A DNA stretch of 35,935 bases from Planctomycetota bacterium (GTDB lineage Bacteria > Planctomycetota > Planctomycetia > Planctomycetales > Planctomycetaceae), in contig RFHO01000043.1 of NCBI GenBank assembly GCA_003696385.1, forward strand, positions 1-35,935, written 5' to 3'. Under the pieces are notes generated by a model that had not been told where the DNA came from, did no database searches, and was given only the letters and a program-made list of their open reading frames with translations. Below, piece after piece: positions 7,324-33,066 of the stretch (position 1 is its first letter; every line of letters starts with the position of its first letter). The position numbers and the translations under genes were made by a program.

Positions 7324-10300
7324 TCAATCGTCGAACACGCTGGCCGACGAATCGGCTCCCCGCGCGGCAATCGCCCTCACGGCCTCCTCGACCCGCTTCA
7401 CAACGTCCTCCAGCGGCCACATGTCGGCCGCCCAGGTGTCGTCAGCGACCGCCCGTTCGATGGACTCGAGTTGCTCGGTGGCCCGTCGGGCGCCGAATGT
7501 CCGCAACGCCCCCTTGATCCGATGCGCCACCGCGGCTGCCTGCTTCGCATCTCCGGCTGCAAACGCCTGGCGGAGTTTTTTCAGCAGCGGAGGCACTTCG
7601 TCCAGGACCGCCTGCGCGACGATTTCCAAGAGCGATTCGTCGCCTCCGACCTGCTCGAGTGCCGTTTGCCAGCACACCGGTGCTTCCTCGGCGTCCGCGT
7701 CCCCAGACGAACGGGAGACTCCAGCGCCGGACCCGTTTCGCGATGCCGCCGGTGTCCGTTCCCGGAGGCGTGACGGTTCTTCCGTACAGGGCGATGGTGT
7801 TTCCGAGGGGTGCTCCGACCGAACCTCCGGGCCGCGTGCGTCCGGCGGTGACACACGGCAAGCGGCCTCGGCGGTCGTTGATTGCGGCTGTGGACGTTCG
7901 CCGATCGGTTGCCCGCTGTCTGGTGTTTCGGCCGGTTGCGGCAGTCGGCCCAGACGCTGCAGGACCTCGTGGATGGTCCGGAACAGTTCTCGGGCGCGAA
8001 CAGGCTTGGAGACGTACCCGTCCATTCCGGCTTCCAGACAGCGCTCGCGGTCGCCTTTCATCGCGTGCGCCGTCATCGCGATAATCGGGACATGCTCACC
8101 GGTCCTCCGTTCGCGACGCCGAATGCGGCGGGTGGCCTCCAATCCGTCCATCTGCGGCATCTGGACGTCCATCAGCACGACGTCGTAGTCCGCGTCGCCT
8201 TCCAGAGCCTCCACCGCCTTTGCTCCGGTATCGACGACATCCATCCGGTGGCCACGGCGCCGGGCCAGACCCAAGGCGAGCTTCTGATTGGGGACGCTGT
8301 CCTCGGCCAGCAGAATCTTCAGCGGGCGGGCGAACAGCGGCTCGTCGCGGTCGGCCGCGGTTCGCCGAGCGTCCTCGGTGGGTGCCGCGTTCCCGGCGAC
8401 CAGTTGCAACGCCTCCAGCAGCTCCGACTGCTTGATCGGCTTTGTCATGTACCGTGCGACACCGAGCCGACGGCACTGTTCCAGCTCGTGGGGTCGCGCG
8501 GCCGAGGTGAGCAGGATGACCGGCAGTTCTCGGTACCGTTCGTCTCCCCTCAGCGCCTCCAGCAGATCGAACCCATCCCGGTCGGGCATGTTGACATCGG
8601 TAATCACCAGTTCGACGGGTGTCCCCTGATCATGGAGGGTTTGCAGCGTCTGGAGCGCCGTCGGCACGCCGTCTGCCGCTTCGGGCAGCAACTCCCAGTT
8701 GGTGAGCATCTGCACCAGAATCCGGCGGTTGGTCGCGTTGTCGTCCACGACCAACACGCGTCGGCCGCGCAGGGAGGCGGGAAGCCGGTCGCGCCGTGGA
8801 GGTGCGATATCGGTCTTGCCCACCACGATGGTGAACCGGAACGTGCTGCCGGCGCCTGGGGAACTCTCGACAGCGATTTCGCCTCCCATCAACTGTACCA
8901 GCCGCGAGGAAATCGCCAGTCCCAGTCCCGTGCCGCCGTATCGCCGGGTGGTGGACGAATCCGCCTGTTCAAAGGCTTCGAAAATCTGCTGTTGCCGGTC
9001 CTCGGGGATACCGATGCCGGTGTCGCGAACGGTGAATTCCAACAGCAACTCGTTCCCCAGATCGCGTTTGACATCCACCGACAGGACGACCTCGCCGCGC
9101 TCGGTGAACTTGATCGCGTTGCCGAGCAGATTCAACAGAACCTGTCGCAGTCGCGTGATGTCGCCGACCACCATCTCGGGGACGGCCTCCGAGATTTCGA
9201 AGGCCAGTTCCAACCCGCGGTCGTGGGCGCGCTGGGCCAACGATTTCACCAGGTCGCCCAGCCGGTCGTGGATGGCGAAGGGTTCGTTCACCAGGTGCAG
9301 TTTCCCCGCTTCGATCTTCGAAAAGTCGAGGATGTCGTTGATCAGCGCCAGCAGCGATTCCGCCGAATCCTTCACCAGACCGAGGTATTCACGCTGCTCG
9401 GCAGTCAATTCGGTGTCGAGTACCAGTTCCGTCATGCCGATGATGGCGTTCATCGGTGTCCGGATTTCGTGGCTCATGTTGGCCAGGAAATCGCTCTTGG
9501 CGCGGTTCGCGGCCTCTGCGGCGTCCTTCGCTTCGCTCAGAGCCTGCTCGTATTGCTTGCGCTGGGTCACGTCGCGGATGACGACGGCGAAGGCCACCTT
9601 GCCCCGCAGCGGGAGCGGCTGCATCGCGACTTCACCGATGAAGCGTTCCCCGTCGGCTTTCACAAGGGGCACCTCGACGTGCCGACCGATCAGCGAGCCT
9701 TCCTCATGGCTCAACGCGAACCGTTGCAGGTTGTCCTGCATCCGTCCGCGGGTCTCTTCGGCGAAGATCAGGTCGTTGATGTTCTGGCCGATGACGTCCC
9801 GGCGGCGATAGCGGAACGTCCGTTCGGCGGCGCGGTTGAATTCCAGAATGCGGCCGTCTTCGTCCGTAATGATCATCGGATCCAGCGACGCTTCGAAAAT
9901 GACCTGCTTGCGGGCCTCGCTTTCGCGCAGGTCCATTTCGCGCAGTCGTTCGGCCGTCACGTCCCAGAAGATGATCTGCACTCCGACGACGTTGTCGCCG
10001 GCGTCGTAGACGGGTGACTTGAGCACCCTCACATATCGTCGCTGGCCGTCTGCGCCCTTGTGCTCCTCGACGGTCTCGAAAACCTTCCGCTCCTTCATCA
10101 CCCGCAGGTCGTCCTTGCGGTATTTCTCCGCCAGCGGGCGGGGGAAGAAGTCGAAGTCCGTCTTCCCTTCGATGTCTTTCCATTCCCGACCGACGTCCTG
10201 GCAGAACGCCTGATTGGCAAACACGAAACGGCCGTCACGATCCTTGCGAATCAGGCTGACGGGGACGGCTTCGACCAGGGACTGGTACAGCGCTTCGGAG

Positions 10301-10872
10301 TCACGCAGGAGCTGCTCCGACTGCCGTCGCAGCGTCATCTCTTCGTCGAACTGCCGGGTGACGTCCGCGATCCGCTTCCCCAGATGGACGACGTCCTCCA
10401 ACACGCACAGCAGTGCGAAAACGGCCTGCTCGCGTGAAAGACGCAGGCGGAAGCTCTTGCCCCGGAACGTCACCGGCAGCTCGTCCTGCCCGTGCAACGC
10501 CCCGCCCCACGTTCCCTTCTGCAGCAGATAGTTCGCGCGTTGCAGGATCTTCTCCGGCTTCTGACGTCCGACCGCGTACGCATCGGCCCCGGCTTCCAGT
10601 ACGCGAAGAACCTGAAACGCGTCTCCGGCATCGGTCAGCGCAAGAATGGGAACGGGACGTTTGGCCGCCGCGCGCAACCGCCGGATCACGTTGCAGCCGT
10701 CCGCGGCGCCCCCGTTCGCTGCGACCACGGCCAGATCCCATTCGCCGTCCACGACATCCTGCAACTCGGCGTCGGACCGGACCAGTTTCACCGCATGCCC
10801 GACGGATTGCAGCACCGCCTGCAGCGATTGTCCTTCCAGGTCACTCTGGTCAAACAGCAGCACCCGAGGCAT
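7324..10872 (-). CDS. Hybrid sensor histidine kinase: N-terminal pseudo-receiver, two PAS, HisKA, HATPase_c, two REC, Hpt
   Basis: H-box [23 protein letters not shown] boxes [31 protein letters not shown]; RECs VLVVDDN...ITDVNMP...KP and ILLAEDS...LMDVQMP...KP; Hpt [13 protein letters not shown]. Confidence 0.95.
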
Positions 10873-11382: not shown

Positions 11383-12219
11383 GTGAGCAGTCCACATCGT
11401 CCAGATGCAAGCGCCGTCGCCGGTTGCCTGGTGCTGCTGGGTACCGGAACCAGCGTCGGTGTGCCGGTGATCGGATGTCATTGCGACGTCTGCACGTCGG
11501 ACGAGCCGAAAAACAAACGGACACGCACCGGTGTCGCCGTGCTGGGGCCTGCGGGGAACTTTCTGATCGACACGTCTCAGGAATTGCGGCTGCAGTTGAT
11601 CCGGGAGCGGATCGACGATGTCGAGGCGGTCGTCTATACGCACGCGCACGCGGACCACGTCTTCGGCCTGGACGATCTGCGGATCTTCGGCGTCCGGAAA
11701 CACCGTCCGGTGCCCCTGTACTGTGAGGAGAACGTCGAACGGCACATTCGACGTTCGTTCTACTACGCCTTTCAGCCATCCGCTCCGGACGCCCATGTCG
11801 GAGCGACGCCGCAGCTGGAGTTTCGCCGCATCACGACTGAGCCGTTCGTCGTTTGCGGTTGGCGCGTCCAGCCGATCCGGCTGCTGCACGGCCGGCTGCC
11901 CATCCTGGGGTTCCGAATCGGCGATATCGCTTTCTGCACGGACGTCAGCGCGATTCCCGACTCTTCTTGGGCATTGCTGGAGGGACTACGCGTCCTGATC
12001 CTGGGGGCCCTGCGGGATCGACCGCATCCCACGCATTTCTCCGTCGGCCAGGCTCTGGACGTCATCGACCGTGTCCAGCCTCAGCAGGCCTACCTGACGC
12101 ATCTGTCTCACCAGCTGGACTACCGAGAGGCGAATCGGCGACTGCCGGAGCGGGTTTCGCTCGCCTACGATGGCCTCCGGATTCCATTGTCCGATGCAGC
12201 CTTCGAGAAGAGCGGTTGA
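11383..12219 (+). CDS. MBL-fold metallohydrolase, PhnP-like (phosphoribosyl cyclic phosphodiesterase family)
   Basis: LLGTGTSVGVPVIGCHCDVC, THAHADHVFGLDDLR, DTSQELR, FCTDVS, LTHLSH; likely GTG start at 11383 (the open frame extends further upstream). Confidence 0.85.
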   Translation: MSSPHRPDASAVAGCLVLLGTGTSVGVPVIGCHCDVCTSDEPKNKRTRTGVAVLGPAGNFLIDTSQELRLQLIRERIDDVEAVVYTHAHADHVFGLDDLRIFGVRKHRPVPLYCEENVERHIRRSFYYAFQPSAPDAHVGATPQLEFRRITTEPFVVCGWRVQPIRLLHGRLPILGFRIGDIAFCTDVSAIPDSSWALLEGLRVLILGALRDRPHPTHFSVGQALDVIDRVQPQQAYLTHLSHQLDYREANRRLPERVSLAYDGLRIPLSDAAFEKSG

Positions 12220-12236: not shown

Positions 12237-12785
12237 ATGAGCCGCATCATTCTGAGTTTGGCGATCGTCAGCACGGTGCTGCTGACCTCGGCGTACGTGC
12301 TGGGATGGAACGTCGAACCGGCCGCGGCGCGCACCGGAGAAAGCTTGTTCGATCTTCACTTCGCCGTTGCGCTGGGGGCCATGTTGTTCGCCACCCTGGT
12401 GCATGGAATCACCCTGACGTACTTCATGGGCACGGGGCGATGGCTGGAAGAGACTCTGAGCGCGTATTCCCTGCCGATGGAACGCTTCGAACGCAGTCGG
12501 CGCCTGAAGTATCGCGTCATCGGCTGGATGACGCTGGCGTTTCTTTCGTTGCTGTTCACCGGAGCCTGCGGGGCGGCGGCTCACGTCTCGACGGCCATCG
12601 GTCCCCGGTTCTGGTGGGGGATTCCCGTCGCCACCTGGCATTTTGCGGCCGCCAGCGTCGCGCTGACCCTGAACACCTACGTACACGCACGCGAGTACGA
12701 AGCGGTTCTGGAGAACAACCGGTTGATCCGGAGCGTGGTCGATGACGTCCGCCGGATCCGTGCCGAGCACGGCTTGCCGTGTTGA
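12237..12785 (+). CDS. Small 4-TM membrane protein with paired H-X14-H motifs (candidate b-type diheme protein)
   Basis: 182 aa, four hydrophobic segments; His41/His56 in TM2 and His135/His150 in TM4; starts 17 bp after the MBL gene. Confidence 0.8.
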   Translation: MSRIILSLAIVSTVLLTSAYVLGWNVEPAAARTGESLFDLHFAVALGAMLFATLVHGITLTYFMGTGRWLEETLSAYSLPMERFERSRRLKYRVIGWMTLAFLSLLFTGACGAAAHVSTAIGPRFWWGIPVATWHFAAASVALTLNTYVHAREYEAVLENNRLIRSVVDDVRRIRAEHGLPC

Positions 12786-12861: not shown

Positions 12862-15800
12862 TCACCGCCGCACATGCAGGATCACCGGCAAACTGGCCTG
12901 GCCGCCGCCAGCGGACGTGTTGAGGTGGAACGTCCGCGTCTGTTCGGCGGCGATCGGATCGGCCGTGACGAAGAAGACGCGTTCGGATTCGTTTTCCAGC
13001 ACGAGCAACCCATTGAGCCCCAGATTGTCGATGTAGACGCCGAACGGCAGATTCCGCCCAGATCCCTCCTTGCCGAACGGTACGGCCCCCTTGAAGCCAT
13101 TCCGCTGGATGACCACCTTCATCATCACGGTCTGCCCGGGACGGATCACGAACTCCAGCAGTTGCCCGGGCTGATCGACGACCGGACGGATCCCACCTTC
13201 CGCCGGCCGGATCCGTACGAGGAACTGCGGAGGCGGCCCGAGCTTGATGCTGCCGAAATTGTTCACCTCGCGCGTCACCGTGCGGCCCCAGATCTGCGCG
13301 GTGGCCCTCATGCGAGTCGATCGAGCGGCCTCGCCCTTGGGCGCCGGTGCGTCTTCGTCGGCCCACATCACGCCTTTGGCTTCGATCTGGTTCTCTTCGA
13401 TCACCAGCGGAGTGGTCACGTGGACTCCGGGAGGCACTCCTTCGATGTCGATCCGGATCGGCCCGGTGAAACCGTCGATCCGCCGTGCCCGCACGGTAAA
13501 CTCCCGGGCACCACCGGCCGGCACGGTGGGGTTCGCTCCCTGCAATGTCACCCGAAAGTCCGGTCGGCGGGGACGGATGGTGACGGTATACCGGTAGTCC
13601 TTGCCTTCCCACCCGCGGACATCCTTGATCTTCAGCAGGTACTCGCCATCCCGCGGGACGGTGAACGTCAGGCGTGAGTCCTTCCCCAGCTCACGATGCG
13701 CATCGTCGTCGTTCTCGTAATACAGCTTGAACACCGGCAGCCCATTGGCCACCAAGCGGGTTCCCGGCGGGAACGGTCGCACGATGTAGCACGGTTCGCC
13801 CAGTGCATGGGCCAACGGCGTCGTATCGAACCAGCCCCAGCGTTTCCCCTGTCCCGGGTACACCATGAACCCGGAATCCGGGCCGCGGGGATACAGCCAC
13901 AGGCGGACCACTTCGCCGTTCGCGTAAAGAAACTCGTTCAGCTTCATTTCCTGCCAGTTGAACACGCGGAAATCATCCACCGTGGAGTCGTTCTTGCCAC
14001 GGAAAGTGAAGTACGAGTCGCGCACCGCCTGCAGCCATACGCGTTCGATCCGCTGGCCCGTGCCGTCCAGAATTTCGACGAACGAATCCAGAGGCGATTT
14101 CGACCGGGCCGCATCGACTTCGACCACCCATTGCTCGCCGCGGTGCGCCGAAAACCGGTACAGGTCGAAATCCGCAAGTTCCCCGACGCGGCCGGCGATC
14201 ACCCCGCGCACCCGCGCCGGCAGCTCGATCGGCATGCCCTGTTCAGGCGCATTGTTCGGCTCGCGCTCCTCGAAATCCCGCGGCGGACGCTGGTCCGTCA
14301 CTGGAGGCACGACGACGGGAGCCGCCGTCGGCGTCGTGCCGGAGCGGACGGGCGGCTGGATGTCCTTCAGTGGAAGGAAGTCGAGTGAGCCGTCCAGGCG
14401 CCCGAGCAGCACGGCGTGACTTGCCGGGTCGTAGGCGAGCCCCGAGACGACGTCGGGTTGCTGCTCCCAGACTGCGCGCTCGATGTATTCCCGGGTGTCC
14501 CACAACTTGACCGCCCGATCCCCACCGGCCGTGATCAGCATCCGGCCGTCCGTCGTCAGGATCAGGCGTGTCACGGGGCCCTCGTGAGCGAATCGCGCCA
14601 CGATCATCGGGTTGATCCGAGGACGGTCGGTGGAGACGAAACGCCACACGCGAATGTTGTTGTCGGCGCCGGCCGCGATGATGTGTCTGCCATCCGGCGT
14701 GAAAGCGCAGGCATAGACCTCCTTCAGCGGCTGTCCCAGCGTGTCCATCCGCTGTCCATCGGCCACCCGCCAGACCTTGCACGTATCGTCCGCCGAGCCG
14801 CTCACCAGAAAACGCCCGTCGGGACTGAAGCCCAGATCGTACACCGCACCGTTGTGTCCGCGCAGGACACGAAGCCGTTTCCCCGATGCCGCATCCCACA
14901 GCATGATCGTCTTGTCGTAGCTGCAGGTGGCGATCACACGTCCGTCCGGAGAAATCTCGGCGTCGTAGATCGTGTCACGATGGGCCACGAATTCCAGCTG
15001 CTTTTTCCCGTCGGTCACGGACCGCAGAGAAACCAGGCCGGCGACGCCCGGCATCCCGGCACCGATCAGCAACGCCGTTCCCCCCCGCGCGAACTGCAGC
15101 GACGTGACCGCCCCGGGAAGATCCTTCCACACGCGCACCGGTTTCGCGGACAGCTTTCCCGCCGCAGTCCGGCGGTGGACCGCAACCGTCCCGTACCGCG
15201 CCACGGCCACCAGAGCACCGTCCGGCGTCATCGCCACTGCGTGAATCGGCCGCTGCCGAGTTTGTGCACGAATCGCGGGGATCACGACCGCGAACGGATC
15301 CACGCGTACGCCTTCCGGGCCCTTCGCCCCCGCTTCGATCCACGCCCGCAACAACTGAATGGCGCCCGCGTCGGGCCGTGGTTCGCCTTCCGGCGGCATT
15401 TGGGGTTCGGCCTGACCGGTCAGGACGCGAAGCAACCGGCTGTTGGCCGGGTCGCCCGGCAGCACGACCGGACCTTTCGGCGAGCCCTGGCGCAGGGACG
15501 CGTACGATTCCAGCGACAGATCCCCTTCCCGGTCCTCGTCGTTGTGACACCCCGCACAGTACTTTCGCAACACCGGCAGGACGTCCGCGGCGAACTGCGG
15601 CGGGGCGTCGACATTGTCTCGGTTGTCCGCGCTACTTCTGTCCGCAGCGGCCGACATTCGCCGATCGGCAGTCGTTGCGTTTTTCATGGGACGTCGCGAG
15701 GTCTCCGTTCGCGCCTCCGCCGGCGGGGGCGGCGCGGCAGCCACGGTCTCCAGGCGCAACACGCTGAACACGGCCAGCCAGGCCGTGCCGACGAAGGCCC

Positions 15801-15873
15801 ATCTCCGGCAATGTGGCATCCGCCGCACGGTGTCCCTTCCGCATTCGGTCATCATCACTCGGTTCGCAATCAT
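12862..15873 (-). CDS. PSCyt1-type cytochrome c domain + WD40 repeats + PPC-like domain protein
   Basis: Heme motif CAGCH in FAADVLPVLRKYCAGCHNDEDREGDLSLESY; WD40 units HRDTIYDAEISPDGRVIATCSYDKTIMLWD and HNGAVYDLGFSPDGRFLVSGSADDTCKVW; EREPNNAPEQ...DFDLYRF PPC-like; N-terminal hydrophobic segment. Confidence 0.9.
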   Translation of the reverse strand: MIANRVMMTECGRDTVRRMPHCRRWAFVGTAWLAVFSVLRLETVAAAPPPPAEARTETSRRPMKNATTADRRMSAAADRSSADNRDNVDAPPQFAADVLPVLRKYCAGCHNDEDREGDLSLESYASLRQGSPKGPVVLPGDPANSRLLRVLTGQAEPQMPPEGEPRPDAGAIQLLRAWIEAGAKGPEGVRVDPFAVVIPAIRAQTRQRPIHAVAMTPDGALVAVARYGTVAVHRRTAAGKLSAKPVRVWKDLPGAVTSLQFARGGTALLIGAGMPGVAGLVSLRSVTDGKKQLEFVAHRDTIYDAEISPDGRVIATCSYDKTIMLWDAASGKRLRVLRGHNGAVYDLGFSPDGRFLVSGSADDTCKVWRVADGQRMDTLGQPLKEVYACAFTPDGRHIIAAGADNNIRVWRFVSTDRPRINPMIVARFAHEGPVTRLILTTDGRMLITAGGDRAVKLWDTREYIERAVWEQQPDVVSGLAYDPASHAVLLGRLDGSLDFLPLKDIQPPVRSGTTPTAAPVVVPPVTDQRPPRDFEEREPNNAPEQGMPIELPARVRGVIAGRVGELADFDLYRFSAHRGEQWVVEVDAARSKSPLDSFVEILDGTGQRIERVWLQAVRDSYFTFRGKNDSTVDDFRVFNWQEMKLNEFLYANGEVVRLWLYPRGPDSGFMVYPGQGKRWGWFDTTPLAHALGEPCYIVRPFPPGTRLVANGLPVFKLYYENDDDAHRELGKDSRLTFTVPRDGEYLLKIKDVRGWEGKDYRYTVTIRPRRPDFRVTLQGANPTVPAGGAREFTVRARRIDGFTGPIRIDIEGVPPGVHVTTPLVIEENQIEAKGVMWADEDAPAPKGEAARSTRMRATAQIWGRTVTREVNNFGSIKLGPPPQFLVRIRPAEGGIRPVVDQPGQLLEFVIRPGQTVMMKVVIQRNGFKGAVPFGKEGSGRNLPFGVYIDNLGLNGLLVLENESERVFFVTADPIAAEQTRTFHLNTSAGGGQASLPVILHVRR

Positions 15874-15890
15874 CGGTCCTCGTCCCGTAA

Positions 15891-15979
15891 CCCCGAACCG
15901 CCGTTCGGGGAAGCTTCGCGCCGATACGCGGAGGGCCCCGGTGCCCTACCGCAAGGGAGCACTCCGGAGGCGAAGCTTC
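15891..15979 (-). promoter_or_regulatory. Intergenic inverted-repeat structure upstream of the PSCyt1-WD40 gene
   Basis: CCCCGAA/TTCGGGG hairpin (15891-15910) plus 10-bp inverted repeat GAAGCTTCGC (15910-15919) / GCGAAGCTTC (15970-15979). Confidence 0.45.
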
Positions 15980-16003
15980 TCGTCGGTTCGGTCGTCGGTC
16001 TGC

Positions 16004-18580
16004 TCAGTGATTGAAGACGAACTCACGGCTCGTCAGGATGCCCCACAGAATGTCTTCCAGCACGACGCGTTCGTTCGGGTCTCCCGCGGGCGGAAGCGTC
16101 TTCAGCAGGCCGTCCCGTTCCGCCGGCGTGGGAAACCGGGCCAGGCACTCCAGGAAGATGCGGTCCAACAGCGCGGCGTCGGACAACCCCGCCCGCCGCA
16201 GACGCAACAGGGCGACCAGCCGGTTCCCCGGTTTGCGCAGTTTCTCGTTCAACGTGCTTCCGTTCGAAAGGTGCAATACCTGCACCATGGTCGGCTCGTT
16301 CGAACGCTCGCATTCACAGACGATTCGCCGCTGGTTGCGACCGAACGCCTGCAGGAAATAGTTTTCCACCGCGGCGTCGTACAGCTGGATCGCCCGCGTC
16401 CCCAGCGGATAGAAGTCGACCTTCTGTCGGTCACCGCCCGGGAACGCGACGAATTCGAATTTCGTCGGCACGCCGGTGATCTGCACGTACGCGTCGTGCA
16501 GGACTTCCGCGATCATTCGCCGCGGGTAATAGCGCGAGTAGAACCTCTTTTCGTCCTTGTTGCCCGGCAACGGCCGGGCCGTACGCTGGTACGCGTTGGA
16601 GCGCAGAATCTCACGCATCAGCGCCTTCAAGTCGAACCCGTTGTCGATCAGAAACCGCGCGGCGGCATCCAGCAGCTCGGGGTTGCTGGGCGGGTTCGAC
16701 ATGCGCATGTCGTCGACCGCTTCGACCAGCCCGACGCCGAAAAAATTCGCCCACACGCGATTCGTGATCGACCGCGCGAAGTACGGGTTGTCCGGCGAGG
16801 TCATCCAGCGCGCCAGATGAATCCGGCGATCGCGAGGATCGTCGAAGGGAATCGGCTCTCCGTCCAGCGGCGTCGGCGGCTGCGGTTTACCCGTCCGTGG
16901 CTGGATCAGCTCGCCCGATTCGACCACATAGACGGTCCGGCGACCGTCTCCGCTGCGAGGTTCACCGCCCCAGCCCTTCGCCTTCACCCGCGCGAACAGA
17001 TTCGCCATTGCGTAGTACTGGTCGTTCGTCCATTTCTCCAGCGGATGGTTGTGGCATCGCGCGCAGTTGATCGACAGCCCCAGAAATGCCTGACAGGCAT
17101 TCTCGGTCATGTCTTCGGGGGTCTGATAGAGGGCATAGAAGTTCGTGGCGCCATTGACCGTGCTCTCGCCGGTGGCCGTGAGAATCTCCCACACGATCCG
17201 GTCCCACGGCGTGTTCGCCGCGACATGCTTGCGGATCCACTGGTAGTAGGCCTTGATCGCCGCCGGTCGCAGCAGCGTGCCGTTCAGCATCAACACGTCG
17301 CACCACTTGTACGTCCAGTAGTCTACGAACTCGGGCTGCTCCAGCAGCCAGTCGATCAGCTTGTCCCGCTTGTCCGGCGCCGCGTCTGTCAGAAACCGCT
17401 CGACTTCCTCGGCCGTGGGCAGGCGGCCGATCGTGTCGAGGAACGCCCGGCGGATGAACACGGAGTCGGTACAGGCCGGTGACGCCGGCAGGTTCAGCCG
17501 CGCCAATTGCCGGTCGATCAACTCGTCGATGAAGTTCCGCGGTTTTCGCCGGTCCGTCTGTGCCTTTGCCGCCGGCGGCCCCGAGAACGGTACCGTGACG
17601 CGGGCGATCGCGATCCGGCTGTCGTACCAGGCCACGATCGCCCCTTCACCCGGGCCGACCAGCTGCACCCGGCCGGATTGGTCCACGCGGGCGACGGCTT
17701 CGTTGCTCGAGGACCACTTCACCCACCGCGTCACGTCGCGCACCGTCCCGTCGGTGTACCAGGCACGCACCAGAATCCGTTGTGTTTCACCTTTCTGATG
17801 CAGTGAACGTTCCGGCAGAACTTCCAGTCGCTCCACTTGCGGATCGTCCGGTCGCGGTGGAGCGGCGCCGGCGGCAATCCATTCGGCCAGGATTCGGTAT
17901 TCCAGCGAATCCGTCTCGAAACGCACCCCGCCCTTGTGTGGAACAGCGGCCGAAGGCTTCATCAGAAACAGACTGGCCGCCGGGTTTTCCAGGTTCACGC
18001 GACGCCCGCGGTCTTGTTTGACGATGTTGAAGTGATCCATCACCGGGGCGTAGCCGCGCAGCGACAGCCGGAAGCCGCCCTTGCCTGCCAGCGCACCGTG
18101 ACACGCACCCGAGTTGCATCCCATCTTGGAAAGCACCGGCAGTACATCGTTCCGAAAACTCCAGCGGTGCGGCATATCGAAACCGTGTACCGCCACCGGT
18201 ACCGTCTGCGTTTCGCCTCCAAGCGTGACTTCCAACACGGTTTTTCCATCGCCCACCGGAAGCACGCGACCGTCTTCCACGCGGGCCACGTCGGGGTCGC
18301 GAACACGCAACGTGGCCTCGACCGTCACCTCCGCACCCGGTTCGGCGCCGTGCATCCGCTGCACAAGCACGTGCTGCCACGATTCGGGGCCGAACAACTG
18401 GATTTCCCGCGGCAACACGACCCACGCCGGTTTGCCCGACGCGGCCGGGGCGGCGCGCTCCGTCAGCAGCTCCGGCAGGACCACTGCCGCAACAATGACA
18501 ACCGTGCCCCAGCATCGGGCAAACCCTTTGGCCGCGACGTGAGACTTCGACAAACCGAAGCCGACAATCCGCTTCGTCAT
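16004..18580 (-). CDS. DUF1549/DUF1553 protein with N-terminal cytochrome-like CNSGACH motif and Big-like domain
   Basis: DVLPVLSKMGCNSGACHGALAGKGGFRLSLRGY; FIDELIDRQLARLNLPASPACTDSVFIRRAFLDTIGRLPT (DUF1549); INCARCHNHPLEKW; FARSITNRVWANFFGVGLVE (DUF1553). Confidence 0.92.
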   Translation of the reverse strand: MTKRIVGFGLSKSHVAAKGFARCWGTVVIVAAVVLPELLTERAAPAASGKPAWVVLPREIQLFGPESWQHVLVQRMHGAEPGAEVTVEATLRVRDPDVARVEDGRVLPVGDGKTVLEVTLGGETQTVPVAVHGFDMPHRWSFRNDVLPVLSKMGCNSGACHGALAGKGGFRLSLRGYAPVMDHFNIVKQDRGRRVNLENPAASLFLMKPSAAVPHKGGVRFETDSLEYRILAEWIAAGAAPPRPDDPQVERLEVLPERSLHQKGETQRILVRAWYTDGTVRDVTRWVKWSSSNEAVARVDQSGRVQLVGPGEGAIVAWYDSRIAIARVTVPFSGPPAAKAQTDRRKPRNFIDELIDRQLARLNLPASPACTDSVFIRRAFLDTIGRLPTAEEVERFLTDAAPDKRDKLIDWLLEQPEFVDYWTYKWCDVLMLNGTLLRPAAIKAYYQWIRKHVAANTPWDRIVWEILTATGESTVNGATNFYALYQTPEDMTENACQAFLGLSINCARCHNHPLEKWTNDQYYAMANLFARVKAKGWGGEPRSGDGRRTVYVVESGELIQPRTGKPQPPTPLDGEPIPFDDPRDRRIHLARWMTSPDNPYFARSITNRVWANFFGVGLVEAVDDMRMSNPPSNPELLDAAARFLIDNGFDLKALMREILRSNAYQRTARPLPGNKDEKRFYSRYYPRRMIAEVLHDAYVQITGVPTKFEFVAFPGGDRQKVDFYPLGTRAIQLYDAAVENYFLQAFGRNQRRIVCECERSNEPTMVQVLHLSNGSTLNEKLRKPGNRLVALLRLRRAGLSDAALLDRIFLECLARFPTPAERDGLLKTLPPAGDPNERVVLEDILWGILTSREFVFNH

Positions 18581-18888
18581 CGACGTCGTGCTCCTCTCGT
18601 CAATGGTCTCCGCACGGATCCCGGGGAACATCCCGCCAACCGCCCTCTCCTGCGGCGCTCGGACGGTCGCACGCCGCGGAACCGGCCTCGCGCTTCGCGG
18701 ACACTGCAGGGCCAACGCTGGTTCGCGATTCGTGCCGCGATCCACTCAGGCCGAAACACCTGACCCCATCAAGCGCCATGCGACCTGTCACCGAACACCA
18801 GCCGGTGTCCGGCCCGAAGCCGTTCCCGATCGGCAGTCGGCAGCCGGCCGACACACTCGACCGCCCCGATCGCGGCCCCCGGGCGCGT

Positions 18889-20262
18889 TCAGAACAATTC
18901 GTGGATTTCCCGGTGGCCGAAATCGACCAGCGGGAACGGCCGGCCGGCCGGACCGGGCAGCGTCGTTTCCAGATCGAATCCCAGGCTGTGGAAGATTGTC
19001 GCCGCGATGTCGGCGGGCTCGACCGGTCGATCCGCCGGAACCCCGCCGATCGGATCGCTGGCTCCAATCACGCGGCCGCCCTGAACGCCACCACCGGCGA
19101 AATACACCGTGAAGCACTGGGGCCAATGGTCCCGTCCTCCCGCGGGGTTGATCCGCGGCGTGCGACCGAATTCCGCCAGATTGCAGACCAGCGTGGACTC
19201 CAGCAGCCCACGCTGATCCAGGTCTTCGATCAAGGCGCTGTAGGCCTGATCGTACATCGGGCACACGATGTTCTTCATCCCGGCGATCGAGGTGAACGGC
19301 TTCGAACCGTGGATGTCCCAAGTCACTTCGTTGAAGACCGTCAGGAACGTGTTGATCGTGACGAACCGGACTCCGTTCTCGATCAACCGCCGAGCCAGCA
19401 GGCAACATTGGCCGAACCGCGTCATGCCGTATCGCTGGCGGACCTTCAAAGGCTCCTTCGACAGATCGAATGCTTCCCGGGCCTGTTTGCTGGTCATCAA
19501 CCGAAAGGCCGTGTGGAAGTTCTGATCCAGCAGCGCGGCGTTCTCCGTGGCCTCGAAGACGTCCACCGCCTGATCGACCAGCTCGCGGATCCGCCGCCGC
19601 CTTTGCAGCCGCACGGTACCGATTTCCGGCGGCGGCAAAAGATCCGGAACCTTGAAGTTCGGCTTGGACGGATCGGCATTCAGCACGAACGGGTCGTATG
19701 CCTTGCCCAGAAAACCGCCGGCCTGTCCATTGGGCAGGTTGCCACCACCTCGCCCCATCAGCTCAGGCAGTACGACGAACGGCGGCAGGTCCGTCTTGCG
19801 CCCCCGCAAGTAGGCCACCACGGATCCGATGTGCGGCGTGTTTACGCCACCGGTGAACAGCCGCCCCGTCTGCATCATCTGCCAGCCGGCGTCGTGCACG
19901 GCAGCCCCGTGATGATGGACGGAGCGAACGAGCGAGAATCTGTCGGCGACCTTGGCATGCAGCGGCAGGATCTCGGAAATCTGGATCTCCGGCGACGCCG
20001 TCGCAATCGGACGGAACGGCCCGCGGATCTCTGCGGGCGCCTCCGGCTTCATGTCGAACAGGTCGATATGGCTGGGGGCGCCGAGGTTGAAGATCATGAT
20101 CCCGTTGCGGTCCGGGGCGTCTTGCCGCAGTGCTCCGGCGGCTTTGGCGGCGAAGAACTGCGGAAGCGACAGCAGTGAGCCCAAGGCTCCGATCCGCATG
20201 AAATCCCGACGCGTCGTCCCGTCGCAGGTGGTGACCGTCCCGCGTGCCGTCAGGGTGAGCAT
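18889..20262 (-). CDS. DUF1501 family protein, Tat signal
   Basis: TTRRDFMRIGALGSLLSLPQF twin-arginine signal; GAPSHIDLFDMKP, LAEFGRTPRINPAGGRDHWP. Confidence 0.93.
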   Translation of the reverse strand: MLTLTARGTVTTCDGTTRRDFMRIGALGSLLSLPQFFAAKAAGALRQDAPDRNGIMIFNLGAPSHIDLFDMKPEAPAEIRGPFRPIATASPEIQISEILPLHAKVADRFSLVRSVHHHGAAVHDAGWQMMQTGRLFTGGVNTPHIGSVVAYLRGRKTDLPPFVVLPELMGRGGGNLPNGQAGGFLGKAYDPFVLNADPSKPNFKVPDLLPPPEIGTVRLQRRRRIRELVDQAVDVFEATENAALLDQNFHTAFRLMTSKQAREAFDLSKEPLKVRQRYGMTRFGQCCLLARRLIENGVRFVTINTFLTVFNEVTWDIHGSKPFTSIAGMKNIVCPMYDQAYSALIEDLDQRGLLESTLVCNLAEFGRTPRINPAGGRDHWPQCFTVYFAGGGVQGGRVIGASDPIGGVPADRPVEPADIAATIFHSLGFDLETTLPGPAGRPFPLVDFGHREIHELF

Positions 20263-26834: not shown

Positions 26835-28055
26835 TCAACCGCCGAAATCGTCGTACGCGATGTTCTCCGGCTCGACGCCCAGATCGTCGAGCATCTTCAG
26901 AACGGCCTGCAGCATGAGTGGCGGGCCGCAGATGTAGTACTCGCAGTCCTCAGGCGCGGGGTGGTCTTTCAAGTAATTGTCATAGACCACCTGGTGAATG
27001 AAGCCCGTCGGTCCGGTCCAGTTGTCTTCCGGCAACGGCTCAGAAAGCGCCACGTGAAACGAGAAGTTGGGAAATTCGCGAGCCAACGCTTCGAACTGAT
27101 CTTGATAGAACATTTCGCGAAGGCTGCGGGCCCCATACCAGTAGGACACCTTGCGCTTCGTCTTTCGGCGTTTGAACAATTCGAAGATGTGCGAACGCAG
27201 CGGCGCCATCCCCGCCCCACCTCCGATGTAAACCATCTCGTTATCGGTTTCCTTGATGAAGAAGTCGCCGAACGGTCCGGAAACAGTCACTTTGTCGCCC
27301 GGCTTCAGACTGAAAATGTACGACGAGCACTTTCCGGGGGGCGTCCCCTCAGGGGCCCTGGGAGGTGGCGTTGCGATCCGGACATTCAGCATGATGATGC
27401 CCTTCTCGTCCGGATAGTTTGCCATTGAATACGCCCGCTCGACCGGTTCGGTCGTGTGCGATTCCAGCCGCCACAGGTTGTACCGGTCCCAGTCCGGACG
27501 GTACTTTTCGTCAATGTCGAAGTCCGAAAACTTGATGTGATGCGGCGGACAGTAGACCTGAATGTACTGCCCGGGCTTGAAATCCATCTCTTCACCTGGA
27601 GGCAACTCGAATATGGTCTCCTTGATGAAAGTCGCCACGTTGCGATTGGAACGGACGGTGCAGACCCACCGGCGGGTCTCGAGTGCCTCGGGTGGCACTT
27701 CGATTTCCATATCCTGCTTGACCGCAACCTGACAGGACAGCCGATAGCCCATCCGCGCCTCGCGATTCGTGATATGGGCCCGCTCGGTGGGAAGCAGTTC
27801 GCCACCGCCCCGCAGGATCCGCACACGACACTGTCCGCAGGTTCCGGCCCCGCCGCATGCGGACGAAACATAGATGCCCTGGTCGGCAAGGACGTTCAGC
27901 AACTTCCCGCCTGCCGGAACTTCAAGATCCTTCTGCTGATTGACCTTGATATGGACCGTGCCGCTGGGTACGAGCTTGGCCTTGGCAGCCAGAATGATCG
28001 CCACGAGCGCCAGCACGATTCCGGTGAACATCACCACGCCGAAGACGACTTCCAT
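26835..28055 (-). CDS. nqrF: Na+-translocating NADH:quinone reductase subunit F
   Basis: N-terminal TM, 2Fe-2S motif [17 protein letters not shown]-binding [15 protein letters not shown]-binding [24 protein letters not shown]. Confidence 0.97.
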
Positions 28056-28246
28056 CTTGTAGTCTCGCTTTGATCGAGGAATTCTCCAGACAGCGGCCTA
28101 CCGCCGACGATCCCGATGCACCGCTGCGGAACAGGGGCCGCGGATCGGATGTGCCTAACCGCGGCGAACGAAAGGCCGACACGGAGGCATCAGCGGTTGC
28201 GGCGAGCTCTGCGTGGCGTGGCCGGGCGGCCCGCCTCTTGGCCCGG

Positions 28247-28861
28247 TCACAACTGAATGCCGCCAAATGCCATGAACGCCATGGCAATCAGACCCACCGT
28301 TATGAATGTAATACCGAGTCCCTGAAGGCCGGCCGGCACATCGCTGTACTTCAGCTTTTCCCGTACACCCGCCAGCACCGTGATCGCCATCGCCCAGCCC
28401 ACGCCAGACCCGAAGCCGTACGTGACGGCTTCGGGGAAGTTGTACTCGTTCTGAATCATCAGCAGCGTGCCGCCCAGGATCGCGCAGTTCACGGTGATCA
28501 GGGGCAGGAAAATGCCGAGCGTGTGGTACAGCCGCGGAAAGTAGCGGTCGAGCGCCATTTCGAGGATCTGTACCATCGCAGCGATGACGCCGATGTAGGT
28601 GATCAGACCGAGAAAACTGAGATCCAGCTCGGCGTATTGCTCACCCGCCCAGGCGAGCGCCCCCGGCCGAAGCAGGTATTGAAACAGCAGATTGTTGGTC
28701 GGCACCGTGATCCCCTGGATGATGATCACCGCCAGCCCCAATCCCATCGCTGTTCTGACGTCCTTCGACACGGCCAGAAACGTGCACATGCCGAGGAAGA
28801 AGGCCAGCGCCAGGTTCTCGATGAACACCGACTTCACGAACAGGCTGATATAGTGTTCCAT
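28247..28861 (-). CDS. nqrE: Na+-translocating NADH:quinone reductase subunit E
   Basis: [43 protein letters not shown]. Confidence 0.96.
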
Positions 28862-28947
28862 CGTTCTTCTGCCCCGTGTGCCGGGCCGCCGGAGTGATCG
28901 GCGGCGGCGGGTGTTGGGATGAAGCGATTCGGTGGGTAGGACAATTG

Positions 28948-29568
28948 TCAGCTCTTGCCGACCTGTTCCGGTTTCCAGGTACGGATCGCCCAGATGATCA
29001 GTCCGATGAGGAAAAAGGCGCTCGGTGGAAGCAGCATCAAACCATTCGGGACATACCACCCGCCGTCACGTGCCAGCGGCAGCACTTCGACACCGTAAAT
29101 CCTTCCGCTGCCGAACAACTCACGAGTGATCCCGACGACCAGCAGAATGAAGCTGTAGCCCAGCCCGTTGCCGATGCCGTCCAGAAATGACAGCTTCACG
29201 TCGTGGTGCATTGCGTAACCTTCCGCTCGTCCCATCACGATGCAATTCGTGATGATCAGCCCCACGAAAACCGACAACTCCTTGCTGGCTTCGTACGCGA
29301 AGGCCTGCAGAACCTGATCGACGATGATCACCAGCGATGCGATGATCGTCATCTGCACGATGATCCGGATACTGCTCGGAATGTAGTGCCGGATCGCGGC
29401 GACAGCGGCGCTGGAGCAGCCGACGACCAGCGTCACCGCCACGGCCATCACCACTGACGTGTGCAGCTTGGTCGTGACGGCCAGAGCCGAACAGATGCCT
29501 AGCACCTGCAGCGCGATCGGGTTGTTGTCGAAGATCGGCGTCAGCAGGACGTCTTTAGGCTTTTCCAT
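28948..29568 (-). CDS. nqrD: Na+-translocating NADH:quinone reductase subunit D
   Basis: [43 protein letters not shown]. Confidence 0.96.
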
Positions 29569-30337
29569 CGTTGCGTTCCTGTTGCAACCGTTTCAGCAGC
29601 GGCCCGAAACCGTTCTCACCAAGCCAATAGTGGATTGCGTTCTGGACGCCCTTGGACGTAAACGTCGCTCCGGACAGAGCATCGATGTGACAGGGATCGT
29701 CGCTCGAACCGCCGCCTCCACCGGGTTTTTCCACACGGATGCAAACGCGGCCCGTTTCGTCGAAGGCCGTCTTCCCACGCCACTGCGCCCGCCATTTGGG
29801 GTTGTCGACCTCGCCCCCCAAACCGGGCGTTTCCTTGTGTTCATAGAAGCCCAGACCACGGATCGTCCGCAGATCGGCATCCAGCGCGATGAACCCATGC
29901 AGCACCGACCAGAGCCCCAGGCCACTGATGGGGAGCACGATCTGGTCCAACGAACCATCTTCATTGCGTACAAAGTAGACTTCCATGAATCGTGGGTGAC
30001 GCTTGATCCGCGCGATGTCCATGTCCGGTGGCAGGAAGATCATCTGGTCGGTGTCGATCGATTCTTCCTCCTCCTTGGGGACCAACGTGGCCTCCCGCTC
30101 CAGGTCCACCCAGCGGGTTTCGATCCGCTCGAACAGCCTCTCGATCTCCGCCTGCGAAGGGTGCGCGTCTTCGCCGATCAGGCCGGCCACGATCAGAATG
30201 TTGCGCATCTTGTCCAGCCGCCGCTGGGCGGCCTGCCGCGGGCGCAGGGCGACGGTCGTCGCCGACACCAGCAACGAACAGACCAGACAAAGCACGACGG
30301 CAACCGTAATCGTGCGACCGACGGTGTCACGTGGCAT
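29555..30337 (-). CDS. nqrC: Na+-translocating NADH:quinone reductase subunit C
   Basis: Covalent-FMN motif [18 protein letters not shown]-terminal TM; overlaps nqrD and nqrB. Confidence 0.96.
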
Positions 30338-31559
30338 TGCGGGCCAGCCTTCGTTTGATGTTCGCCTGGACGACGAAATGGTCGATCACCGGAGCGAACA
30401 CGTTGCCGAACAGAATCGCCAACATGATCCCCTCCGGAAACGCCGGATTGATGACACGGATCAGGATCGTCATCACTCCGATCAGAATTCCGTAGAACCA
30501 TTTGCCCGTTTCGGTCATCGCGGCCGAAACCGGATCGGTGGCCATGAACACGGTCCCGAACGCGAATCCGCCGACGACCAGATGCCAATACGGCGGCATC
30601 CGGAACATCGCGTTGCTCTCGCTCCCGACCGCGTACAGGAAACCGGAAAAGCCCATCGCGCCGATCAGGACCGCCAGCATGATCCGCCAACTCCCCACGC
30701 CGGTGGCGATCAACAACACCGCCCCCAGCAGGCAGGCCAGCGTGGATGTCTCCCCCATCGAACCGGGCATGGTGCCGAGAAAAGCGTCCCACCAGGACAG
30801 ATTGTTCAGCACGGCTTGCATTCCCACTTGTGGGTTCGCAGAGGCCAGAACCCCCAGCGGCGTCGCACCGCTGAAACCGTCCACGGCAGGTACGGCGGTC
30901 CAGATCGCATCACCGACCATCGACGGTGCATAGGCGAAGTACAGGAACGCCCGACCGGTCAACGCAGGGTTCAGGAAATTCCGTCCCGTTCCTCCGAAAA
31001 CTTCCTTGCCGATCACCACCCCGAAACTGATTCCCAGTGCCGCCTGCCACAAGGGAATCGTGGGCGGTAGCGTAAGCGGAAACAGAACTCCGGTTACCAG
31101 GAACCCCTCGTTGACCTCGTGTCCCCGCACGCTCGCGAAGAGCAGTTCCCACAGCCCGCCCACTACATTACAGACCACGTAAACGGGCAGGAAATACAAC
31201 GCGCCGTGCACGATGTTCGACCACCAGCTCTGCGGGTCGTATCCGGACCCCAGAGCGGCGATCACGCTCCCCCGCCATCCCGGAGCCGAACTCAGGTGCA
31301 GCTCCTGCATGGCGAGATTGGCCTGCAAACCGGTGTTCCACATCGCCATGTAGATGCACGGCAAAAGCGCAACGACAACGGTGATCATCATCCTTTTCAG
31401 GTCCATGCCGTCGCGCACGTGAGACGGCCCGGAGGTCACCTCGTCAGGCGTATACAGGAACGTGTCGATGGCCTCGTACAGCGGGTACAACCGCTGCAGC
31501 TTTCCGCCTTTGACGAACAACGGCTTGACAGCGTCCAGCACGCGGCGAATCGGCTGCAT
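30327..31559 (-). CDS. nqrB: Na+-translocating NADH:quinone reductase subunit B
   Basis: [10 protein letters not shown] covalent-FMN motif; multiple TM segments; [23 protein letters not shown]. Confidence 0.96.
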
Positions 31560-31710
31560 GGTTTCAGCACCCTTTGTCTGTCGTTCCATACCCGCGGGCG
31601 CGGTTGACAGCAATCGCATCGCTCGGAACGGGCCGTCCCAATGCTTCTGCAACCCGAAGCGAGCGGAGAGGACGGAAAGCTCGAAAAAGCGAATCGATCG
31701 AAAGGACGAA

Positions 31711-33066
31711 TCAGCCTTCCTTTTCGTACCGTTCCAGTACCTGCCTCAGGAGCGGGCCATACTCCATCTTGCCGGGACACGCAAAGGTGCACAAAGCCAG
31801 GTCTTCTTCGTCCAGTTCCAGAGCTCCCAGGGCCACGGCCTGTTCGACGTCGCCGACCAGGAGTGCCCGCAGCAGGAACGTCGGCAGGATGTCCAACGGC
31901 ATCACTTTTTCGTACATCCCGATCGGCACCATCGCCCGCTTGCTGCCGTTCTGCGAAGTCGTGAAGTCGAAACGCCTTCCGCGAGCGAACCACGCCGAGG
32001 CGAAAACCGGTTTGATCGAAAACATGTCCATGCCGGGACGCAACCAGCCCAGAAACCGACGCGGGGCTCCCTCGCGCAACACCGAAATCTGATTGTGAAA
32101 CCGTCCCAGAAACGCCAACGGCCCGGTGGCCGTCCGTCCGGACAGCACCGAGCCGCTGATCACGCGGTGGTGCCCGGGTTTGAGCTCCCCGGCGGTCAGG
32201 GTCTCCGTGCATGCTCCCAGGCGCGTCCGCAACAACCGCGGTCGTTCGACCGACGGTCCCGCCAGACTGATCACACGTTCCACCGGCACCACGCCGGTCT
32301 CGAAGAAACGTCCGACGTCGCAGACGTCCTGGTAACCGATGTACCACACCGTCTTGTGCTCGGACACCGGATCCAGAAAGTGAATGTGCGTCCCCGGCAA
32401 ACCCGCCGGATGTGGGCCCGTGAACCGGCTGTGCGTCACGAACCGCAGGTCGGTCCCGGGAATCGCGCTGTCCGCGTCCGTGCAGAGAAAGACGCGTCCT
32501 TCGGTCAGATGCTGCAGCACATGAAGCCCGCGGACAAAGTCCCGTTCTCGCTCCTGAAGGGTCAATCGTGGCGGCGGAGCCAGAGGGTTGGTATCCATCG
32601 CCGTGACGAACAGTGAATGCGGCGTGCTGCCCGGCACAGGCGTCTTGCTGTACGGTCGTGTCCGCAGAGCCGTCCACAGGCCCGACGCCACCAGCGCACC
32701 GGTCACCTCTTCCCGAGTCAGCGCGTCCAGGTCGGTCTTGCGGGGCAACTCGAAGGCCACCGGATCCTCATCAAGCTGCGGATCGACTTCGATCACCAGC
32801 GACAGAAATCTCCGCTTGGCACCGCGGTTGATCTCCCGCACGGTCCCGCCGGCGGGCGCTGTGAACACCACCTCCGGATTCTTCCGGTCTGCGAACAGGC
32901 GTTGACCGCGGCGCACGCGGTCGCCGACCTGGACCTCCAGTGCCGGCTTCATCCCGTTGTAGTCCGGTCCGAGCACGGCGACACGGCTCACGGACCGCGC
33001 CGGCTCGATCGACTCCGACGGTTCGCCGGTGATCGGCAGATCCAAACCCCTGGTAATGCGAATCAT
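31711..33066 (-). CDS. nqrA: Na+-translocating NADH:quinone reductase subunit A
   Basis: [62 protein letters not shown]. Confidence 0.96.

Follow-up and report, generated by a model that had tools for sequence, protein, structure and literature searches.

Many membrane genes of the Planctomycetota are unexplained, and one of them lies in the window analysed here, i.e., the whole stretch of 35,935 nucleotides of contig RFHO01000043.1, where it raises the question of how many haems, if any, its product carries. The open reading frame at 12237–12785 translates without internal stops into 182 amino acids and is called as coding. The protein contains the histidine pairs His41/His56 and His135/His150, whose codons lie where the initial annotation had placed them (Table 1); the members of each pair are 15 residues apart and Phe-Ala follows the first His of each. 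From this pattern a free-standing diheme b-type cytochrome had been proposed. When six His are placed randomly in 182 positions, two disjoint pairs spaced exactly 15 occur in 0.4% of trials, and pairs spaced 14–15 in 1.7%. Evolutionary conservation is a stronger test than chance spacing, and by that test three of the four His are real family features and His150 is not one.

Table 1. Coordinates of the gene and of the residues discussed, with their conservation (149 homologues unless otherwise given).
Feature	Position	Strand	Basis or conservation
Gene, 182-aa four-TM candidate monoheme b-type membrane protein	12237..12785	+	Open frame, coding call, 109 homologues, AlphaFold2
Gly23, TM1, proposed haem-packing glycine	12303..12305	+	146/146 having a residue there
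His41, TM2, proposed axial haem ligand 1	12357..12359	+	149/149; under TM2 haem His of b561 profile
Ala45, four after His41, small	12369..12371	+	Gly/Ala/Ser 149/149
His56, inner half of TM2, without conserved His partner	12402..12404	+	His 142/149, else Asn/Gln/Cys/Tyr
Gly112, TM3, proposed haem-packing glycine	12570..12572	+	148/149
His116, end of TM3	12582..12584	+	Asp 125, His 14, Arg 4 of 149
His135, TM4, proposed axial haem ligand 2	12639..12641	+	149/149; under first TM4 haem His of b561 profile
Ala139, four after His135, small	12651..12653	+	Gly/Ala/Ser 94%
Asn146, inner half of TM4	12672..12674	+	137/149
His150, inner half of TM4, not characteristic of the family	12684..12686	+	His 6/149; close relatives mostly Asn/Ser

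The four transmembrane helices claimed for the protein are in agreement with hydropathy and charge, and the AlphaFold2 model built on a 66-sequence alignment gives four helices as well (residues 2–24, 32–76, 82–121, and 131–177; mean pLDDT 92.4, pTM 0.85). Positive charges are found at the N-terminus, in the segment between TM2 and TM3, and at the C-terminus, and both termini are therefore placed inside. With this orientation His41, residue 116, and His135 are predicted to lie toward the outer face, with Gly23 and Gly112 also on the outer side. Some distant members of the family (L149–L151, L156–L159, L178, and L179) have a six-helix form with two extra C-terminal transmembrane helices, and the AlphaFold2 model of L126, which is similar to these, has six helices. 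Long open frames of up to about 690 aa were also seen around some distant members.

Of the 392 Planctomycetota genomes sampled, profile searches first showed 76 and later 81 to have the family, some with the six-helix form. A first set of 109 homologues, about 30–47% identical to the window protein, was aligned with it, and in these 110 sequences His41 and His135 were invariant while His56 was present in 109. The same alignment shows Asp116 and Pro117, each in 108 of 110 sequences, where the window protein has His116-Val117 (12582–12587); among distant members residue 116 is mainly Asp or His. Per-position entropies were then computed from an alignment of 149 homologues from across Planctomycetota, and the lowest values, Met1 apart, belonged to Gly23, His41, His135, and Gly112. 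Similarly, in a 40-sequence alignment (A2) with a mean column identity of 24%, His41 and His135 were the only invariant columns; Gly23 and Gly112, each conserved in at least 90% of the sequences, were together with Met1 the only others that came near to invariance.

This arrangement of residues has a known parallel. In each hairpin of cytochrome b6, one helix supplies two His ligands to haem and the other supplies conserved Gly that leave space for haem packing (PMC5730185). The family has the pattern once rather than twice, with one His in each of TM2 and TM4, one Gly in each of TM1 and TM3, and a small residue at the fourth position after each His, which is the trace expected of a single bis-His haem site. 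From this, together with the conservation observed, the topology, the predicted fold and the alignment register against the b561 profile (see below), we infer, with somewhat better than even confidence, a stand-alone four-helix membrane protein that binds a single b-type haem through His41 and His135. The haem would lie near the outer (periplasmic) face with these two residues as axial ligands, and space for the porphyrin would come from Gly23 and Gly112 together with the small side chains of residues 45 and 139. Toward the inner face a conserved set of His56, Asn146, and Lys91, at the end of TM2 and around the TM2–TM3 loop, possibly handles quinone or protons. With this putative inner site the protein may carry electrons one at a time between the quinone pool and a partner on the outer side, be it donor or acceptor. 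Haem occupancy, redox activity, contact with quinone and the direction of flow are all conditional parts of this scheme.

In its proposed layout the protein would correspond to the half of a bacterial cytochrome b561, such as the superoxide oxidase CybB, that carries the outer haem, and the site for the inner haem would either have been lost or never have existed. CybB accepts electrons from superoxide at haem 2, on its outer side, and it reduces quinone close to haem 1, the inner one (PMC11869295). Like the members of the family, it is a stand-alone protein of about 180 aa with four transmembrane helices; its haem ligand His45 is at the start of TM2 with Gly49 four residues on (in the L183 sequence), and His137 is at the start of TM4. 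We read His45 and His137 as the outer pair from the topology, and by the b561 profile they correspond to His41 and His135 of the family. In contrast to CybB, the family has neither a conserved His in TM1 (CybB His13) nor a second conserved His in TM4 (CybB His151), and it has in addition a conserved His56 and a TYFMGTGRW motif. Both outer-haem ligands of b561, the His in TM2 and the first His in TM4, are present in 149 of 149 homologues, whereas the inner pair is not conserved (a TM1 His in 8/149, His150 in few), which argues that the family is without an inner haem.

The likeness to b561 was also sought with profiles. Among 66 members, 29 matched PF01292 (Ni_hydr_CYTB, cytochrome b561) at E ≤ 1, against 4 for the next family, and the matches in single members were collinear across TM1–TM4. 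The best score among the members listed was 21.3 bits, below the curated cut-off of 30.1 bits, and the window protein itself gave no match to PF01292. A b561 profile grown from E. coli CybB scored above 10 bits with 60 of the 149 family members; among controls the same threshold was passed by none of 149 reversed sequences, 7 of 149 locally shuffled ones, and 21 with the His masked. In 66 of 68 aligned domains the profile's TM2 ligand column coincided with His41, and in none did it coincide with His56; its first TM4 ligand column fell on His135 in 33 of 50, and the remaining two ligand positions fell on no conserved His of the family. Profile–profile comparison of the family with b561 or cytochrome b (hhalign) gave no significant match, nor did Foldseek against the PDB for either of two confident AlphaFold2 models at E ≤ 0.001, the kind of fold comparison that the initial annotation had suggested. 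Kinship with b561 therefore stays a lead, and it is better supported that the protein works like the outer half of a b561 than that it is one.

Other known families offered less. Searches of Pfam and NCBIfam gave no score reaching a cut-off and a sequence search of the PDB gave no match of weight, in agreement with the initial annotation, which did not recognise the protein as a named family; no curated model names it. The cytochrome b/b6 core (PF00033) also takes its His ligands from helices two and four and has conserved Gly in helices one and three (PMC5730185), but the family shows a single pair of His and a single pair of Gly where the core has two of each. As hhalign gave a probability of 0.5% for PF00033 and no score rose above the shuffled controls, kinship with cytochrome b was rejected. 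The designed diheme bundle CytbX/4D2 (PMC10120048) is, as the family may be, a minimal four-helix haem bundle in the membrane; it differs in being designed and in holding two haems, and no kinship is implied.

Two invariant His predicted to lie near the outer face could also hold something other than haem. It is conceivable that His41, Asp or His at 116, and His135 form a non-haem site for Zn, Cu, or Fe, as in a membrane hydrolase, an oxygenase or a metal-handling protein, and it is in keeping with such a site that Asp or His is found at position 116 in 139 of the 149 homologues, next to the level of the two His. We consider this rather unlikely. Distant members have Arg, Glu, Ala, or Tyr at 116 and keep both His, and since residue 116 changes while the His stay, a metal triad is the poorer fit. 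Moreover, a bare metal ion would have no need of the invariant glycines at 23 and 112 or of a small residue at the fourth position after each His, whereas a porphyrin would.

The gene neighbourhood bears on whether the protein has fixed partners. The upstream MBL gene matches PF12706 (E 1e-33) and ends at 12219, which confirms the 17-base gap reported for it. Co-transcription of the two genes, which had been thought probable from that gap, did not hold up as a family trait, as the pairing was absent beside the family member in every other fetched locus, and an operon with the MBL gene was therefore rejected. Neighbours are mixed and differ by lineage, including HisD, PF00144 hydrolase, DUF6263, MFS, NadA, and thiolase-like genes. 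Those that recur are histidinol dehydrogenase (HisD) upstream in 15 loci, a DUF6263 protein upstream in 22, and a PF00144 beta-lactamase-type hydrolase downstream in 24; no conserved redox, haem or respiratory gene was found among the recurrent neighbours of family loci. Because the neighbours vary and the recurrent ones are neither haem nor respiratory genes, the protein looks stand-alone. The gene is also missing from nine searched genomes of genus g56 (G105, G126, G234, G278, G289, G346, G394, G425, and G429), several of them single-contig, although g56 belongs to the same family as the window organism and most of that family has the gene, which shows that it is not indispensable. In three genomes a conserved Cys-rich (CxxC-type) protein of 60 aa is encoded directly upstream (L160:8223–8402, L161:7954–8136, and L164:8320–8499); identification of this tiny gene as CcmD was rejected, the protein being Cys-rich and zinc-ribbon-like.

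The identical bis-His site could serve a haem-handling or assembly factor, e.g., a haem chaperone, part of an exporter or an oxidase-assembly protein, in which His41 and His135 would hold haem transiently, and the absence of a redox partner gene nearby is what such a role might lead one to expect. Nevertheless this appears quite improbable, as the recurrent neighbours include no ccm, cta, cox, or hem genes and the protein matches no known assembly family.

Elsewhere in the window, the minus strand carries a Na+-translocating NADH:quinone reductase operon at 26838–33066, where NqrA, C, D, E, and F pass NCBIfam cut-offs and the open frame at 30330–31652, between NqrC and NqrA, is presumably NqrB. 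The product of 7327–10872 (minus strand) is a large hybrid sensor histidine kinase; it has PAS, kinase and receiver domains and BarA/TorS-like matches. Three large minus-strand genes at 12865–20262 are convergent with the candidate cytochrome gene; they gave no match in an NCBIfam search, and by eye we take them to resemble the planctomycete set of c-type cytochrome/WD40, DUF1549/1553, and DUF1501 genes.

What then of His150 and the second haem? Position 150 was Asn in 76, Ser in 17, and His in 5 of the 110 closer sequences, and across the 149 homologues it is mostly Asn, Ser, or Phe. The six carriers of His150 are the window protein, the clade L005/L035/L042/L047, and L129, a distant member. 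On the tree the window protein has L003 and L032 as sisters, both with Asn150, and its own His150 is therefore a separate recent gain. The residue arose independently of the window at least twice more, in L129 and in the L005/L035/L042/L047 clade, as if a second His site were easily remade. The initial annotation had staked its proposal on the four His not varying freely among orthologues; position 150 does vary, while His41 and His135 are invariant and His56 nearly so. As His56 is kept where His150 is rare, the role of His56 is independent of a His at 150, and no constant His partner for it was found in TM1, TM3, or inner TM4 of the 149 homologues. The two conserved His in each of TM2 and TM4 that mark the cytochrome b/b6 diheme core are thus absent from the family, and a four-His diheme was rejected as a family trait. 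What stands of the original proposal is a free-standing b-type-like protein with one bis-His pair, His41/His135; the two haems do not. That one haem is held by His41/His135 and another by His56/His150 is very improbable, even though the four His are all present in the window protein and match in depth, and His150 has been gained there as in other lineages, given that any His within 142–155 occurs in only 13 of the 149 homologues, that His56 is nevertheless kept in 142, and that the sisters of the window protein have Asn150.

It is tempting to speculate further on the single-haem protein preferred here, namely that it represents a Planctomycetota family of half-b561 single-haem oxidoreductases in which a His56/Asn146/Lys91 quinone site replaces the inner haem, and in which change of Asn150 to His is remaking the second site in a few lineages including that of the window; as a combined whole this is unlikely.

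On the evidence of conservation the proteins of this unnamed family of the Planctomycetota probably hold one haem rather than two. If the haem is real, a single-haem four-helix protein would be about the simplest natural membrane cytochrome imaginable and a natural counterpart of the designed bundles. It would also offer a clean comparison between one haem here and two in b561/CybB, and the natural Asn150/His150 pairs would allow a test of how a second site arises.
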